Below, piece after piece: positions 56,101-61,725 of a stretch of DNA of 64,000 nucleotides. The notes beneath the pieces were generated by a model that saw only the letters and a program-made list of their open reading frames with translations, ran no database searches and was not told where the DNA came from. Position 1 is the stretch's first letter. Every line of letters begins with the position of its first letter. Both the position numbers and the translations under genes were made by a program. The stretch is from Devosia sp. SL43. GTDB taxonomy: Bacteria > Pseudomonadota > Alphaproteobacteria > Rhizobiales > Devosiaceae. Where the stretch lies: the NCBI RefSeq assembly GCF_021729885.1, contig NZ_CP063401.1, forward strand, positions 496,001 to 560,000, given 5' to 3'.

Positions 56101-56915
56101 CCCGCGAAAAGATGCCCGATCGCCGCAAGGGTTACACCCAGAAGGCGGTCGTTGGCGGCCACAAGGTCTATGTCCGCACCGGCGAATATGACGATGGCCG
56201 CATCGGCGAGATCTTCATCGACATGCACAAGGAAGGCGCCGCCTTCCGCGCCATGATGAACAATTTCGCCATCGCGATTTCGCTGGGCCTGCAATATGGC
56301 GTGCCGTTGGACGAATATGTGGAGGCCTTCACCTTCACCCGCTTCGAGCCTGCCGGCATGGTCATGGGCAATGATCGCATCAAGAGCGCGACGTCGATCC
56401 TCGACTACGTGTTCCGCGAACTGGCCGTCTCCTATCTGGACCGGGATGACCTCGCCCATGTCAATCCGGACAGCCCGACCTCGCTCGGCAAGGGCGTTGC
56501 CGAGGACAAGGCCGCGCGCATCGCTGCGCCCGCCCCTGCCCCGGTGCCCGCCGAGCGCTTTGTCTCCCGCGGCATGACCCGTGGCCGCGTCGCCAACAAG
56601 AACCTGATGATCGTCTCGGGCGATCACCAGACCTACAATCCCGTCCAGGCGATGCAGACCTCAACCGTGACGGCGCTCCGCTCCGCCACCGCATTGAAGC
56701 AGGAAACCCAGCTCGCCCCGGCAGCGTTTGCTCCCGCCGAACTGAGCCCCATCCCAAGCCCACCCCCGGGCAAGGACACAGGCCTGCTCCGCGCCGAAGC
56801 CCAGATGAAGGGCTACACGGGCGACCAGTGCACCGAGTGCCATAACTTCACGATGGTGCGGAACGGCACGTGCCTGAAGTGCGATACTTGTGGGACGACG
56901 ACTGGGTGTAGCTGA
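53193..56915 (+). CDS. nrdJ: Vitamin B12-dependent (class II) ribonucleoside-diphosphate reductase
   Basis: 1240 residues from ATG 53193. It makes deoxynucleotides using adenosylcobalamin, independent of oxygen. N-terminal landmark [20 protein letters not shown]; substrate-loop [18 protein letters not shown] (about residues 151-168); the active-site block [20 protein letters not shown] (about 469-488), then [20 protein letters not shown] (about 671-690). The linker [14 protein letters not shown] and the Asp/Glu-rich [11 protein letters not shown] (about 930-940) are also seen. The C-terminal cysteine-rich tail is [20 protein letters not shown], typical of the NrdJ zinc-ribbon. The length fits the long alphaproteobacterial form. 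The start at 53193 is favoured over GTG 53163 by family start. Confidence 0.96.
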
Positions 56916-56968: not shown

Positions 56969-56993
56969 ATGCCCGGGCCAAACGCCCGGGCAT
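56969..56993 (+). terminator. Hairpin after nrdJ (possible terminator)
   Basis: A perfect 10-bp stem ATGCCCGGGC / GCCCGGGCAT with loop CAAAC, 54 bases after the nrdJ stop. The tail TGTCATG is not T-rich, so termination would be weak or Rho-assisted. It marks the left border of the accessory segment. Confidence 0.45.
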
Positions 56994-56997
56994 TGTC

Positions 56998-57342
56998 ATG
57001 CCGGGATGCCAAAAGATGCTTGAGGTGATCTCAGACCTTGCTTCCATAGCGACCGCGTTAATCGCAATGGCAGCGTCTGGACTGTACTTAGTCGACAAGC
57101 GGAAGAAGCTGCGCCGGCTGGAGAGCTACTTAAAGGAACAGAAGACCAAGCCACTAGGCAGTGCCGATCAAGGCCAAAGAACCTTGCTTCACCTTGTAGC
57201 CAATTTAGGCATGACGGAGGGTGAAGTGATGGACGCGAGTTTCAGAAGAAAAAAAATACGACGATTGGTCGGCCAAGATGCTCGTGGTTACGCAAGCCAC
57301 CTTCTTCTAGAGTATTATGAGGTGCCTAAAGAGAAGGGCTAG
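56998..57342 (+). CDS. Small membrane-anchored hypothetical protein
   Basis: About 114 residues from ATG 56998; ATG 57016 is another possible start. A membrane segment (LASIATALIAMAASGLYLV, about residues 11-29) is followed by a basic, helical cytoplasmic part: DKRKKLRRLESYLKEQK, then LVANLGMTEGEVMDASFRRK and RRLVGQDARGYASHLLLEYY. The second part resembles a small winged or helical recognition module (LGMTEGEV...R.KIRRLVG), but no family is recognised. Codon use is more A+T-rich than in the neighbours. It is convergent with the D12 methyltransferase (stops overlap by 3 bases). Its function is unknown; it may belong to the same accessory unit. Confidence 0.55.
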   Translation: MPGCQKMLEVISDLASIATALIAMAASGLYLVDKRKKLRRLESYLKEQKTKPLGSADQGQRTLLHLVANLGMTEGEVMDASFRRKKIRRLVGQDARGYASHLLLEYYEVPKEKG

Positions 57343-58283
57343 GCGGCAGGCACCATCGCGCCCTCCTGCTGCTGAATCTGCCTCTTGTGTTTCGCGCTGC
57401 TGTAGATCTGTTTTGGCTTTGCAAGCCCATCAGAAAATATCATGACCTCTTGCCCCAGACCGTGATTCCTAGCGCTATAGCCAATAGCAAATTGCTCCTG
57501 CACGTATTCACTATACAGGTCGCGAATGGCCTCGGCGTTGTCGTACGATGTAACCCAACGATGCGTAAGGCCGTCAATGGCAGATTTAAGAATTGCGTGA
57601 TCCCACGATGAGTAGTTATTTTCGTAAAGGTAAGCACCCTTAACAAAATACGGCGGATCAATGTATACGAAGCAATCATCCTCAACGTGATTTAGGGATG
57701 ATATAAATTCGGCTGCATCTCGATTGCTGACATGTATTCTCGACGAAAAAAATCCAATTCTGGCTATCTTGGATATCAAGGCGGACTTGTTGAATCTGCA
57801 ATCAAGTTTATAGGTTCCGGCCTGATTCAAGCCGCCAATCATCCCGCCATTTAGGATGCCAGATTGGTTGGTCCTATTAAGGAAGAACGCCGCAAATCCC
57901 AACTCCACACGGTCGGAACCCATTGGATTGCGCTTCACTTCTCGTGCAGTTAGCCAGTTTTCAATCGTGACTGGTGTTTCCGCTATTCTAGAAATCAACC
58001 GGTCAGTTTGATGCACTGCACTATGCCAAAAGGCGAAAACAGCGGGATCGATATCGTTGATATAGATGTGCGAAACCCGTTCGGAAAACAGAAGGTCTAG
58101 CGCAACGCCAGCGCCCCCAGCAAACGGCTCAGCGTATCTTGACCCCAACAGCCCGTTTAGTTCCAGAATCTCGGTGAGGTACGGCCCAAGCTTGCCTTTT
58201 CCGCCTGGATATCGCAACGGCGACGCGTTTCTCATAGAGACCCTCGCAAGTCCGCCAGGGTTTTGGCGGTCGAGAGCAATCAT
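57339..58283 (-). CDS. D12-class N6-adenine DNA methyltransferase
   Basis: 314 residues. Dam/D12 class motifs are in order: PLRYPGGKGKLGPYLTEILE (about residues 22-41), SAM site AEPFAGGAGVALDLLF (about 51-66), NDIDPAVFAFWH (about 76-87), and catalytic motif IV as YIDPPYF (about 216-222). The start at 58283 forms an ATGA overlap with the stop of the upstream ParB-like gene, so the two are translationally coupled. The target sequence is not deducible. There is no endonuclease-like restriction gene next to it, which makes it a solitary methyltransferase or part of a non-classical system. Codon use is unlike that of the core genes. Confidence 0.88.
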   Translation of the reverse strand: MIALDRQNPGGLARVSMRNASPLRYPGGKGKLGPYLTEILELNGLLGSRYAEPFAGGAGVALDLLFSERVSHIYINDIDPAVFAFWHSAVHQTDRLISRIAETPVTIENWLTAREVKRNPMGSDRVELGFAAFFLNRTNQSGILNGGMIGGLNQAGTYKLDCRFNKSALISKIARIGFFSSRIHVSNRDAAEFISSLNHVEDDCFVYIDPPYFVKGAYLYENNYSSWDHAILKSAIDGLTHRWVTSYDNAEAIRDLYSEYVQEQFAIGYSARNHGLGQEVMIFSDGLAKPKQIYSSAKHKRQIQQQEGAMVPAA

Positions 58284-59713
58284 GGCTTAGACTTTTCAAT
58301 AGCTTCGAAAAGCTCGTGGAGATATGGGTGAAAACGATCCCATATGGTTAGTATTTCACTTCCTGCCGGTAGGTCTGCGTGATCATGAATGGCACGGTTT
58401 AGCTGGTCGAGCGTATGAAGTCGCCCATGCACACCATTGGCGACATCACGTGCCGCGGCCAGCTTCGGCGCACTGCCGGATGGATCAATCTGCCTTAAAG
58501 CAGTCGCGACCTTGTCCTTCAGTTTCACGCCGTAGTCGTGCCAAGTAGCGCCTGCCGTGGTATTCAGTGTAGGGACGCTCATCTCCTCCAAGAACAGCGT
58601 TGTCGCCTTCTCGAGGAAGACTCGAACAACCGCTGCGCAGACGAAAGGATTCTTCTGTACAGAGAGCTTTCGCAGCTCGGCATAAAACTTATTTAGGCCG
58701 GAGTTTGAGATCCGCAGTCCCTTGTCGGCCAAGTATTTTCTTGGAGCCGACGGCTTTGACTTCGACGATGTCGACGCTGGCGTGGTGGTTGCCGCTGGCT
58801 GCGTGGCGGTTGTCGTTGCAGCGGTGCCGCCTGTCGCGGCCGTCGTAGAAGCCGTTGTGGTAACGGGATCAGGCTTTTTTACATTTAGATGTACAAACTT
58901 CTCCAGCCACTCCCTTTGTTGGTCGGCAGTGCTAACCACCGTCTCTTTAAACGTACTCTCGGCCATGGCCTGCAACATAGCCAAAAGCAGCTTTAGGGCA
59001 GCCTCGTCGTCACCATTCTCCGGCACCAAACTGCCGTCTGTGCCAAATTGCAGACCCAAGAGCGTCGACATCTGGCTAGACAAAAGGACGCGTTCGACTG
59101 TGGTTGTCTTACCTGCAATTCGGTCCCGAAGATCCTCGGCGTCGGTTCCATGGCTTTCGACGAAAGCCAAAGAGGTCATCCACCTCGAAAATCTACCCTC
59201 GCTGGCATCACTCCGTGCGGTCGCTACGGCGTTCCAAGCCATAGTGCCTCGGCCACCCATACCCTTGTAATGCTTGCGCTTGATCCAAATTGCTGCATCA
59301 GTGCGGCTCAGCAACACGCACTCCACCTTCTTGATGTTCAGCGCAAGAAATGGATCGTGCAATTTTTTGAAGGTCTGGTGAACGGGCAGTCCCTCGGCCA
59401 GCGCAGGCGTCATCATCGTTTTAAGCGCAGTGATCCTACGGTTACCCTCGAGTGCGACATACTCGCCCTCGCGATCACCGTTTGTGACAATGAGGAGAGA
59501 CGACGGATCAAGCCCCCTTTGGTCAATGATGTCTTGGGCCAACTCCGAGACTTTGTGTACCTTCTCGTCACCGAGGAGCATACGGATTGCGTCTCGCTCG
59601 TGCGATACTTTGGCGTGCCGAAAATTGGCCACATCAAGTGAAATTGCTGCAATGTCGACTTCCATTGGCCCCTCAGTCGAATCGTTGTCGGCCGAGGCAA
59701 TATACACTTGCAT
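58280..59713 (-). CDS. ParB N-terminal-like protein with low-complexity linker and helical C-terminal domain
   Basis: 477 residues from ATG 59713. Residues about 20-175 look ParB/Srx-like: VANFR near 28-32, VALEGNRRITALK (about 86-98) matching the ExNRR-type core, and a KRKHYKGMGGRGTMAWNAVATARSDA-like region (about 145-170) that in related proteins reads (R/K)HTG...G..W...KARFD. Residues 280-325 are a Thr/Ala/Pro/Ser linker. The C-terminal ~125 residues are helical (NPFVCAAVVRVFLEKATTLF, then LNRAIHDHADLP and IWDRFHPYLHELF), resembling the HEPN-like/RNase-type tail seen in some defence proteins. It overlaps the methyltransferase gene (ATGA). Role unproven: DNA-associated nuclease or NTP-dependent protein working with the methyltransferase. 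Confidence 0.7.
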   Translation of the reverse strand: MQVYIASADNDSTEGPMEVDIAAISLDVANFRHAKVSHERDAIRMLLGDEKVHKVSELAQDIIDQRGLDPSSLLIVTNGDREGEYVALEGNRRITALKTMMTPALAEGLPVHQTFKKLHDPFLALNIKKVECVLLSRTDAAIWIKRKHYKGMGGRGTMAWNAVATARSDASEGRFSRWMTSLAFVESHGTDAEDLRDRIAGKTTTVERVLLSSQMSTLLGLQFGTDGSLVPENGDDEAALKLLLAMLQAMAESTFKETVVSTADQQREWLEKFVHLNVKKPDPVTTTASTTAATGGTAATTTATQPAATTTPASTSSKSKPSAPRKYLADKGLRISNSGLNKFYAELRKLSVQKNPFVCAAVVRVFLEKATTLFLEEMSVPTLNTTAGATWHDYGVKLKDKVATALRQIDPSGSAPKLAAARDVANGVHGRLHTLDQLNRAIHDHADLPAGSEILTIWDRFHPYLHELFEAIEKSKP

Positions 59714-59811
59714 TGGATGGAGCCCCGGTCCTTTTCGATCGTCAGCGCGCCAGCGAGCATCTCGGCCCCCAATAGCGCGTTGGAATCCCAACTCCGGCGA
59801 AAGGCCCGCCC

Positions 59812-60043
59812 CATGAACATCTCCGTCTTCGGCACCGGTGAAGTCGGCTCCGCCGTCGCCACCAAGCTCAAATCCCTCGGTCACGCCGCCGTCTTCGGCT
59901 CGCGCCATCCCGGCAGCGACCGCGACGGCATCCCCGTCCTGAGCGATGCCAATGCCGCCGCGCATGGCGAAGCTGGTGCCGCTCTACCTCGCCGGCAAGC
60001 TGCCGGTCGATTTGGGCAACCGGCGCTCCGCCATCGACAGCTG
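59812..60043 (+). pseudogene. Broken F420-dependent NADP oxidoreductase-like gene with alcohol-dehydrogenase-like tail
   Basis: ATG 59812 opens a Rossmann start MNISVFGTGEVGSAVATKL and GSRHPGSD, like the N-terminus of NADPH:F420 oxidoreductase-type proteins, but the similarity ends after ~45 residues. In another frame, 59954-60043 reads MPPRMAKLVPLYLAGKLPVD and then a stop; it resembles the C-terminal LVDLYLAGKLPVD of zinc-dependent alcohol dehydrogenases. So two gene remnants seem joined, and neither is complete. It lies just outside the accessory segment. An alternative is one small unknown protein (the frame stays open to 60139). Confidence 0.5.
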
Positions 60044-60594: not shown

Positions 60595-60606
60595 CCCACA
60601 CCCACC

Positions 60607-60850
60607 ATGTCATTCCGGCGCAGGCCGGAATCCATCCTGAGATGACAGGGCGGACGGTGGACGCGGAATGTCCTCAGGATGGACCCCGGCCTTCGCCGGG
60701 GTGACACCGTGGGTGAGGCAAGCATAGAGGCTGATAGGTCCACCGCGCGCTCAACACCCAGCGTGTCATTCCGGCGAAGGCCGGAATCCATCCTGAGATG
60801 CCTCACCCCGTGACAGCGGCAAGACCTCAGCCTGCGCCGGGATGACATCG
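60607..60850. repeat. Cluster of REP-like palindromes (left set)
   Basis: Direct and inverse copies of GTCATTCCGGCGCAGGCCGGAATCCATCCTGAG-like units. Good copies start at about 60609 and 60764 (plus orientation) and about 60673 and 60822 (inverse, with CCCCGGC...GCCGGGGTGAC and CCTCAG). Each unit is a hairpin TCCGGC...GCCGGA with an attached CATCCTGAG. They sit between yccF and the GIY-YIG gene. Confidence 0.85.
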
Positions 60851-60864
60851 GAATTGGGGCGGCG

Positions 60865-61161
60865 TCAGAGACCGACATCACCAGACAAATCCCGCCAGTC
60901 CGGGTTCATCGCCTCAATGAGCCGCTCCTTCCAGGGACGGTGCCAGTCCTTGATGCGCTTCTCGCGTGTGATGGCCGCCGCGACATCCCCATGCACCTCG
61001 TACCAGACCAGCTTGTCGCAGCCATAGCGGTCGGTGAAGCTGCCCTCAAACACATGGTTCTTGTGCTGCCAGACCCGGCGCTCGGGAAAGCCGGTCACGC
61101 CGGTATAGATCGCGCCATGCTTGCGATTGGCCATGATGTAGACGAGGTAGGTCTTGCTCAT
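60865..61161 (-). CDS. GIY-YIG nuclease family protein (small, COG2827-type)
   Basis: 98 residues from ATG 61161. The single GIY-YIG domain reads YLVYIMANRKHGAIYTGVTG (about residues 5-24) with ERRVWQHKNH and FTDRYGCDKLVWYEVHGDV, then AITREKRIKDWHRPWKERLI and a short end. It is a stand-alone small GIY-YIG protein without a zinc finger; such proteins are common in alphaproteobacteria and have unknown substrates. The frame is open upstream to 61314, but that part is translated REP sequence (RMDSGLRRND-type), so it is excluded. REP units lie on both sides. Confidence 0.85.
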   Translation of the reverse strand: MSKTYLVYIMANRKHGAIYTGVTGFPERRVWQHKNHVFEGSFTDRYGCDKLVWYEVHGDVAAAITREKRIKDWHRPWKERLIEAMNPDWRDLSGDVGL

Positions 61162-61204
61162 GTGCCGAACAAAGCATGAACAATCCATATTTTCAACACT
61201 CACG

Positions 61205-61306
61205 GTGTCATTCCGGCGCAGGCCGGAATCCATCCTGAGATGATTGGACGCGTTGCGGCCGTGGAAAAACCTCAGGATGGATCCCGGCCTGCGCCGGGAT
61301 GACATC
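61205..61306. repeat. REP-like palindrome pair (right set)
   Basis: One plus-oriented unit (about 61207-61241) and one inverted unit (about 61271-61306), again GTCATTCCGGC...CATCCTGAG and its complement. They are the same family as at 60607-60850. The pair forms a larger hairpin with a loop at about 61242-61270. Confidence 0.85.
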
Positions 61307-61398
61307 GAGGTCATGCAAACACCAGCGTGAGCGACCCGTCCACTTGTCCCCGTCCCCCCAACACCGCGCTACACTGGCCATGTCACTGGGGGACGACA

Positions 61399-61725
61399 AT
61401 GACGGCACCACTGGGTCCGCGCACCATCCGCGCCTATCGCCGCTTCGCCAAGCCGCTCGCCGCCTTGATGAAGGTCACGCGCGGCAAAGCCGCGGGTCCG
61501 GTCGGGGCGACCACGGTGGCCCGCTGCAATGCCCTCATCGTCGCCGCCAACAGGCTCTTCGCCCGCGAGCCCGATATCGGCCGCCTGCCGCCGCTGCCAG
61601 CCCATGCCACCCTGTCCGCGATCGATCTGGCGCTGGTGGTCGATGAACTCACCATCGCCACCCTGCGCTTCGAGGAACGCTATCCCGAACTCGATTCCCA
61701 CAAGCCGCCGCCGCTGCCCCGCTGA
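61399..61725 (+). CDS. Hypothetical small protein
   Basis: 108 residues from ATG 61399, with GGGGGA 5 bases upstream. Opening MTAPLGPRTIRAYRRFAKPL, a positively charged helical first half (LMKVTRGKAAGP, RCNALIVAANRLFARE), and a second half with LSAIDLALVVDELTIATLRFEERYPELDSHK. No family is recognised; it looks like a soluble helical protein. It is isolated, with no obvious operon partner. Confidence 0.65.
   Translation: MTAPLGPRTIRAYRRFAKPLAALMKVTRGKAAGPVGATTVARCNALIVAANRLFAREPDIGRLPPLPAHATLSAIDLALVVDELTIATLRFEERYPELDSHKPPPLPR

Follow-up and report, generated by a model that had tools for sequence, protein, structure and literature searches.

In a 64,000-nt stretch of Devosia sp. SL43 (NZ_CP063401.1, positions 496,001-560,000; the whole of this stretch is called the window below, and its positions serve as coordinates), three low-GC genes lie directly 3' of nrdJ. 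Two of these genes, encoding an adenine methyltransferase and a long protein with a predicted ParB-like fold, are almost certainly a copy of the anti-phage system PD-λ-5. As an explanation of the locus as a whole, we consider it likely that PD-λ-5 was acquired together with an unrelated small gene in a variable slot behind nrdJ, and that the system acts by marking DNA, surveying it and engaging an effector. The features of the segment are as follows.

56970..56992, no strand: hairpin TGCCCGGGC-loop-GCCCGGGCA, just 3' of the nrdJ stop (sequence read directly)
56998..57342, plus strand: small protein of 107-114 amino acids (aa) with an N-terminal hydrophobic segment, within the low-GC segment
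57339..58283, minus strand: PD-λ-5 component B, a D12-class DNA adenine methyltransferase (PADLOC, Pfam)
58280..59665, minus strand: PD-λ-5 component A, with a ParB/sulfiredoxin (Srx) fold, a low-complexity linker and a helical C-terminal domain (PADLOC, fold match)
59666..59774, no strand: leader region of the A-B operon, reaching the right edge of the segment
59775..59969, plus strand: remnant of a gene resembling F420/NADP-oxidoreductases, with an open reading frame (ORF) starting at 59813 (blastn to relatives, weak Pfam match)

A PD-λ-5 gene pair behind nrdJ

PADLOC assigned the long protein to PD-Lambda-5_A (E 7.2e-174, residues 18-474) and the methyltransferase to PD-Lambda-5_B (E 1e-113, compared with 6.7e-92 for the generic MTase_II model). 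Because both components are thereby named as parts of a system that was described in E. coli in 2022 (Vassallo et al., Nat Microbiol; excerpts of PMC9519451), the pair is already known as a defence system and the island studied here is a new copy of PD-λ-5. The original prediction for this locus had proposed a previously undescribed defence or epigenetic unit; its defence part stands, while the idea of an undescribed system was rejected given the PADLOC identification, a check that the prediction itself had suggested.

Component B was correctly predicted to be a D12 adenine methyltransferase (Pfam MethyltransfD12, PF02086, E 4.5e-19). Its DPPY and EPFAGG motifs are intact, the former being invariant in all 18 aligned homologues (B itself counted). 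That B really modifies DNA is suggested by a detail concerning mrr reported for PD-λ-5 (excerpts of PMC9519451). A second D12 adenine methyltransferase is encoded elsewhere in the same genome (44.6 kb contig C2, 31008-31628).

The two genes are adjacent on the same strand with A upstream, and the stop of A shares 4 bases with the start of B (58280-58283). The same order was found in 28 of the 46 viral-contig loci that an 11-member alignment of A brought in, where the methyltransferase gene directly follows A on the same strand with a gap of -115 to +78 bases. Among bacterial contigs, those with the two closest relatives of A, from Mesorhizobium and Rhizobium at 54% identity, also have the A-B pair. 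As a point against the favoured explanation, the other 18 viral loci lack the plain A-B order: in 13 of them A is short or distant and the methyltransferase gene lies about 1 kb further on (none was found in one of the 13), and the remaining five comprise one locus with the methyltransferase 1.8 kb away, two with A and no methyltransferase, and two in which no A was called.

A variant arrangement occurs on ten viral contigs (L148, L150, L152, L154, L155, L157, L158, L163, L166 and L167), where a short relative of A, 371-433 aa long, is followed by a gene of 331-348 aa (10/10) and then by a D12 methyltransferase gene (9/10); in seven of these nine loci the methyltransferase gene lies on the opposite strand. 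The profile of the C-terminal domain of A had no match at E≤10 within these ten stretches, and the arrangement may represent a sister system of PD-λ-5 with three genes.

The copy described here resembles PD-λ-5 as published (excerpts of PMC9519451) in that both components are matched by PADLOC and the system contains a methyltransferase. In contrast to the original, a prophage version (same source), it occupies a slot 3' of nrdJ where no neighbouring phage genes were noticed, it is adjoined by an unrelated small gene, and it is known from sequence alone. Genomic islands have been given as a location of PD-λ-5 as well (excerpts of PMC12629846 and PMC12824646).

Component A: a predicted ParB/Srx-like fold and a helical C-terminal domain

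For component A we preferred the ATG at 59665 (461 aa) over the alternative ATG at 59713 (477 aa), because the ORFs of its two closest relatives begin there and GAGGGG stands just upstream. A structural model built from 27 sequences (pLDDT 87.4) was compared with known structures using Foldseek, with Noc as the best match (E 3.8e-4, probability 1.00), followed by ParB (3.5e-3) and, more weakly, sulfiredoxin (E 0.09) and free serine kinase (E 0.65), the latter two at probabilities of 0.99-1.00. A profile-profile comparison (hhalign) between A and 15 canonical ParBs gave E 5.8e-4; this set excludes one wrong-strand and one divergent row, and with both included the values were E 2.3e-4 and a probability of 44%. 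For comparison, E was 0.13-0.83 with six column-shuffled controls, and 0.29 and 0.51 with a pair of unrelated alignments. Moreover, the residues GNRR (90-93) correspond to the G-x-R-R nucleotide-binding motif and are invariant in all 27 members of the A family, as are N30 and R32. On the basis of this modelling, A can be read as a ParB/Srx-fold protein hidden from family searches, its nucleotide motif being intact; this would be a new reading of PD-λ-5. Indeed, 'PD-lambda-5' occurred together with 'ParB' or with 'sulfiredoxin' in no paper of the literature searched, and the accessible main text of a survey of ParB folds (PMC12704722) contains neither 'PD-lambda' nor 'Lambda-5'.

Several observations weigh against this assignment, and the evidence for ParB is moderate. 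Only one fold match, that to Noc, falls below E 0.001; the TM-scores to ParB and Noc, normalized by target, are 0.29-0.38 among the first nine matches, with the domains placed differently; and the hhalign probability for A against the 15 ParBs is just 29% over 65 columns. A sequence search of the PDB with the A alignment returned no meaningful match. At the level of sequence families, none of the 27 members has a Pfam ParB domain at E≤0.01, A matches neither Pfam PF02195 nor NCBIfam TIGR00180 at the thresholds used, and a PF02195 search of its own genome retrieved the canonical ParB only. Because no Pfam or NCBIfam ParB model matches, we class A as a relative of the ParB fold and not as a member of the ParB family. 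The earlier label 'ParB-like' is thus borne out for the fold, through the Noc/ParB match of the model, and not for the sequence family.

Compared with known proteins, the N-terminal part of A has its fold in common with ParB/Noc CTPases, sulfiredoxin and free serine kinase, and A carries GNRR. Unlike ParB/Noc, however, it lacks a Pfam ParB match, it has a helical C-terminal domain behind a low-confidence linker, and there is no parA gene among the three genes of the segment. A further parallel is offered by DndB, a ParB-fold protein linked to a DNA-modification system (excerpts of PMC12704722): DndB-type partners and A would both be ParB-fold proteins tied to DNA modification, whereas the modification is phosphorothioation in DndB systems and predicted adenine methylation here.

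The linker of A spans residues 288-316 and the helical domain residues 326-477. Modelled alone, this domain reached a pLDDT of 95.2 and was helical in all but one residue, and its residues E346, R364, E368 and H443 are invariant across all 27 members. None of its PDB matches was significant; among the 50 of 65 matches listed, the best TM-score belonged to the HEPN protein 2hsb (0.51/0.59), and a toxin-antitoxin chain stood lower. Against a HEPN domain speak the non-significance of the 2hsb match itself (E 3.8, probability 0.35) and the absence of any HEPN family when the C-terminal domains of the 27 members were scanned with Pfam. The canonical HEPN motif is R-x4-6-H, and this motif, too, is absent from A: the position five residues before H443 is L, F or M in all 27 members, and none of the eight columns preceding the invariant H443 (-1 to -8) holds an invariant R. 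We also considered RAIHDH as a catalytic HEPN R-x4-H and rejected it, as neither its R nor its second H is conserved. With HEPN ribonucleases as the best TM-score partner among the matches examined, yet with a non-significant match and the canonical motif missing, the domain can be called HEPN-like at most.

Possible mode of action

For the action of the pair we favour, tentatively and at somewhat less than even odds, a division of labour in which B marks, A surveys and the C-terminal domain executes. B would methylate adenines within a sequence motif and thereby mark the host DNA. A might serve as a ParB-fold surveyor or clamp on DNA that binds nucleoside triphosphates (NTPs), and might either engage unmarked DNA or sense the loss of the mark. 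The helical C-terminal domain could then act as the effector that halts the phage and, probably, the cell it has infected, so that the overall outcome would combine self/non-self discrimination, resembling that of restriction-modification (RM), with abortive infection. A more specific version, which we regard as speculative and doubtful, casts PD-λ-5 as an NTP-switched DNA-clamp sensor, with A loading on unmethylated DNA and, in the clamped state, switching on its HEPN-like C-terminal domain, which would kill or arrest the cell. ParB loads at parS, which offers a parallel for the loading of A on unmarked DNA. If true, this version would define a class of abortive defence that reads methylation by means of a ParB fold. 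The ParB-fold reading makes the mechanism of PD-λ-5 directly testable, through NTP binding and through mutation of GNRR, R364 and H443.

Alternatively, the pair could be a compact RM system in which A is a ParB-like nuclease that cuts phage DNA lacking the mark of B, with no abortive infection. The pairing of a methyltransferase with a DNA-binding type of fold would fit such a system, and RM is invoked by the authors of the PD-λ-5 study (excerpts of PMC9519451). However, Pfam, NCBIfam and PADLOC found no restriction-nuclease family in A, its fold matches are to ParB/Noc, sulfiredoxin and free serine kinase instead of restriction nucleases, and its conserved C-terminal domain is helical except at a single residue, so that we regard this alternative as rather unlikely. 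We give very little credence to a purely epigenetic pair, in which B would methylate and A bind methylated or hemimethylated sites, regulating genes of the host or of a mobile element and not acting on phages: regulators do occur among ParB-fold proteins, as with DndB (excerpts of PMC12704722), but the pair is directly homologous to an experimentally validated defence system (PD-λ-5; excerpts of PMC9519451), and the slot holds other defence genes in several relatives, as described below.

Acquisition, the slot behind nrdJ and the small gene

Returning to the acquired PD-λ-5 copy, the locus was read correctly at the outset as three accessory genes between nrdJ, whose stop is at 56915, and a gene remnant with an ORF from 59813. 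The predicted excess of A+T and the different codon use were likewise found. The GC content of the segment 56916-59774 is 52.6%, compared with 63.0% for the window, and GC at third codon positions (GC3) is 0.56 for the small protein gene, 0.54 for the methyltransferase gene and 0.60 for A. These values are lower than those of all 34 other ORFs (mechanically picked from the window, at least 250 aa; mean 0.79, standard deviation 0.054, minimum 0.63). ARAGORN found no tRNA in the window, and neither an integrase nor a transposase was seen among the three genes, as had been noted before.

On the left, the variable segment is delimited by the hairpin at 56970..56992, which is terminator-like, without a T run. 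The right edge had been placed at 59812; instead it lies at about 59775, some 38 bases earlier, with similarity to relatives resuming at about 59775-59809. From there the remnant matches relative G058 (92.5% over 161 bases) and relative G010 (87.5% over 104 bases) by blastn, and it is the right-hand neighbour of the slot in these relatives too. The suggestion that it is a broken gene is plausible: similarity of the ORF at 59813 to relatives is confined to residues 1-44, and Pfam F420_oxidored matches residues 2-34 at E 0.011, below the cut-off.

We next compared the flanking sequence 3' of nrdJ, 1.6-13 kb from each of 49 relatives; an nrdJ match at E≤0.001 was present in 70 of the 75 genomes of the genus, some of these matches being weak and to related genes. 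None of the 49 flanks matched the segment, whether as DNA or through any of the three encoded proteins, while the end of nrdJ, as a positive control, was found in 48. The segment is therefore accessory and variable, as predicted, and core-like conservation was not seen. Of 100 other genomes searched, just four have a relative of A, with no more than 35% identity, and the three copies within the genus are far from their own nrdJ. The segment is a recent horizontal acquisition. An origin from a phage or plasmid, as read from DNA matches, was considered and dropped: the whole segment has no plasmid DNA match, A has partial relatives alone in four phage and three plasmid records, and when viral contigs were scanned with one protein at a time, neither A nor the small protein gave a match.

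By eye, most relatives have different sequences behind nrdJ, apart from a few small groups that resemble one another, and low-GC genes often come next. PADLOC was run on 30 of 33 listed flank proteins (selected manually, in part because of low GC, from 22 of the 49 flanks), 12 of which, in nine flanks, matched at E≤1e-8; the other 18 had weaker matches or none. The matches include AbiU (1e-138), a CBASS cyclase (9e-106, 2.3 kb behind nrdJ), PDC-M34A/B, PDC-M50A/B and PDC-M70A with an exonuclease effector. As a control, 57 of 58 listed ORFs lying 6-12 kb further on in 19 of 20 loci (not GC-matched; one very long ORF, alone in its locus, dropped) matched 13 PADLOC families at E≤1e-8, with member counts totalling 18; the strongest were PDC-S49, with a single member at 2e-163, and mad3, reaching 1e-37 at best, and the commonest mad3 (four members) and mad8 (three). 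With this imperfect control, the slot looks like an integrase-free defence hotspot of the genus. The clearest case is a frame of nrdJ and the F420-like remnant common to this genome, G010 and G058. Between the two, G010 carries AbiU, G058 a three-gene low-GC cassette, and the genome studied here PD-λ-5 together with the small gene. Such a shared frame with exchanged contents fits an entry through recombination in the flanking genes, so that the homologous exchange proposed earlier is plausible; the segment probably came in by this route, without an integrase of its own, although the pattern is no proof. Since the genus appears to swap defence genes there without an integrase, the slot may also be a place to look for undescribed defence systems.

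Two relatives deserve mention in this respect. In the cassette of G058 (locus L076, 698-2377) the first two genes have no PADLOC match at E≤0.01. In G047, the relative with the highest nrdJ identity (locus L073), the first gene behind nrdJ encodes 543 aa with a weak match to a methyl-directed restriction enzyme (E 1.2e-4); if real, such an enzyme could conflict with a methyltransferase system, and the two may exclude each other.

The small membrane-protein gene is convergent with the methyltransferase gene, overlapping it by 4 bases, and its product matched no family above cut-off (Pfam, NCBIfam and PADLOC among the scans). We regard it as an independent gene outside the PD-λ-5 unit. A three-gene defence unit with this protein as effector or regulator could draw on its sharing the low GC and the slot, and on its relatives lying within about 1 kb of defence genes in three of four plasmid loci, but it is highly improbable and was dropped: the protein occurs in none of the 67 loci that searches with A retrieved (63 of them have a called A, and 19 extend only about 1.5 kb per side), its gene is on the opposite strand, and in all seven loci read of a related order, where 8 of 24 genomes have it, it stands between the same two housekeeping-type genes, which we take to encode nicotinate phosphoribosyltransferase and NAD synthetase.

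Elsewhere, relatives of the small protein have diverse and unrelated genomic contexts. Within its own order it is found in 5 other genomes of 296, in varied neighbourhoods. Eight plasmid records matched; neighbourhoods were taken from four of these and the neighbours scanned in three, giving PD-Lambda-4_A in one, GajA, GajB and SduA in another (the relative lying between GajB and SduA, its match in two pieces), and MkoA in the third, with the relative directly before it. Two viral contigs with the same genes carry a relative upstream of a recombinase-like gene, presumably a serine recombinase. The family is thus one with a hydrophobic N-terminus that occupies a housekeeping locus in one order and has various defence systems nearby on some rhizobial plasmids.

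Further along the window, a GIY-YIG gene (60865-61314, Pfam E 7e-13) lies among apparent copies of a short palindromic intergenic repeat (60600-61400), and in relative G008 comparable repeats accompany one full copy and one split copy.

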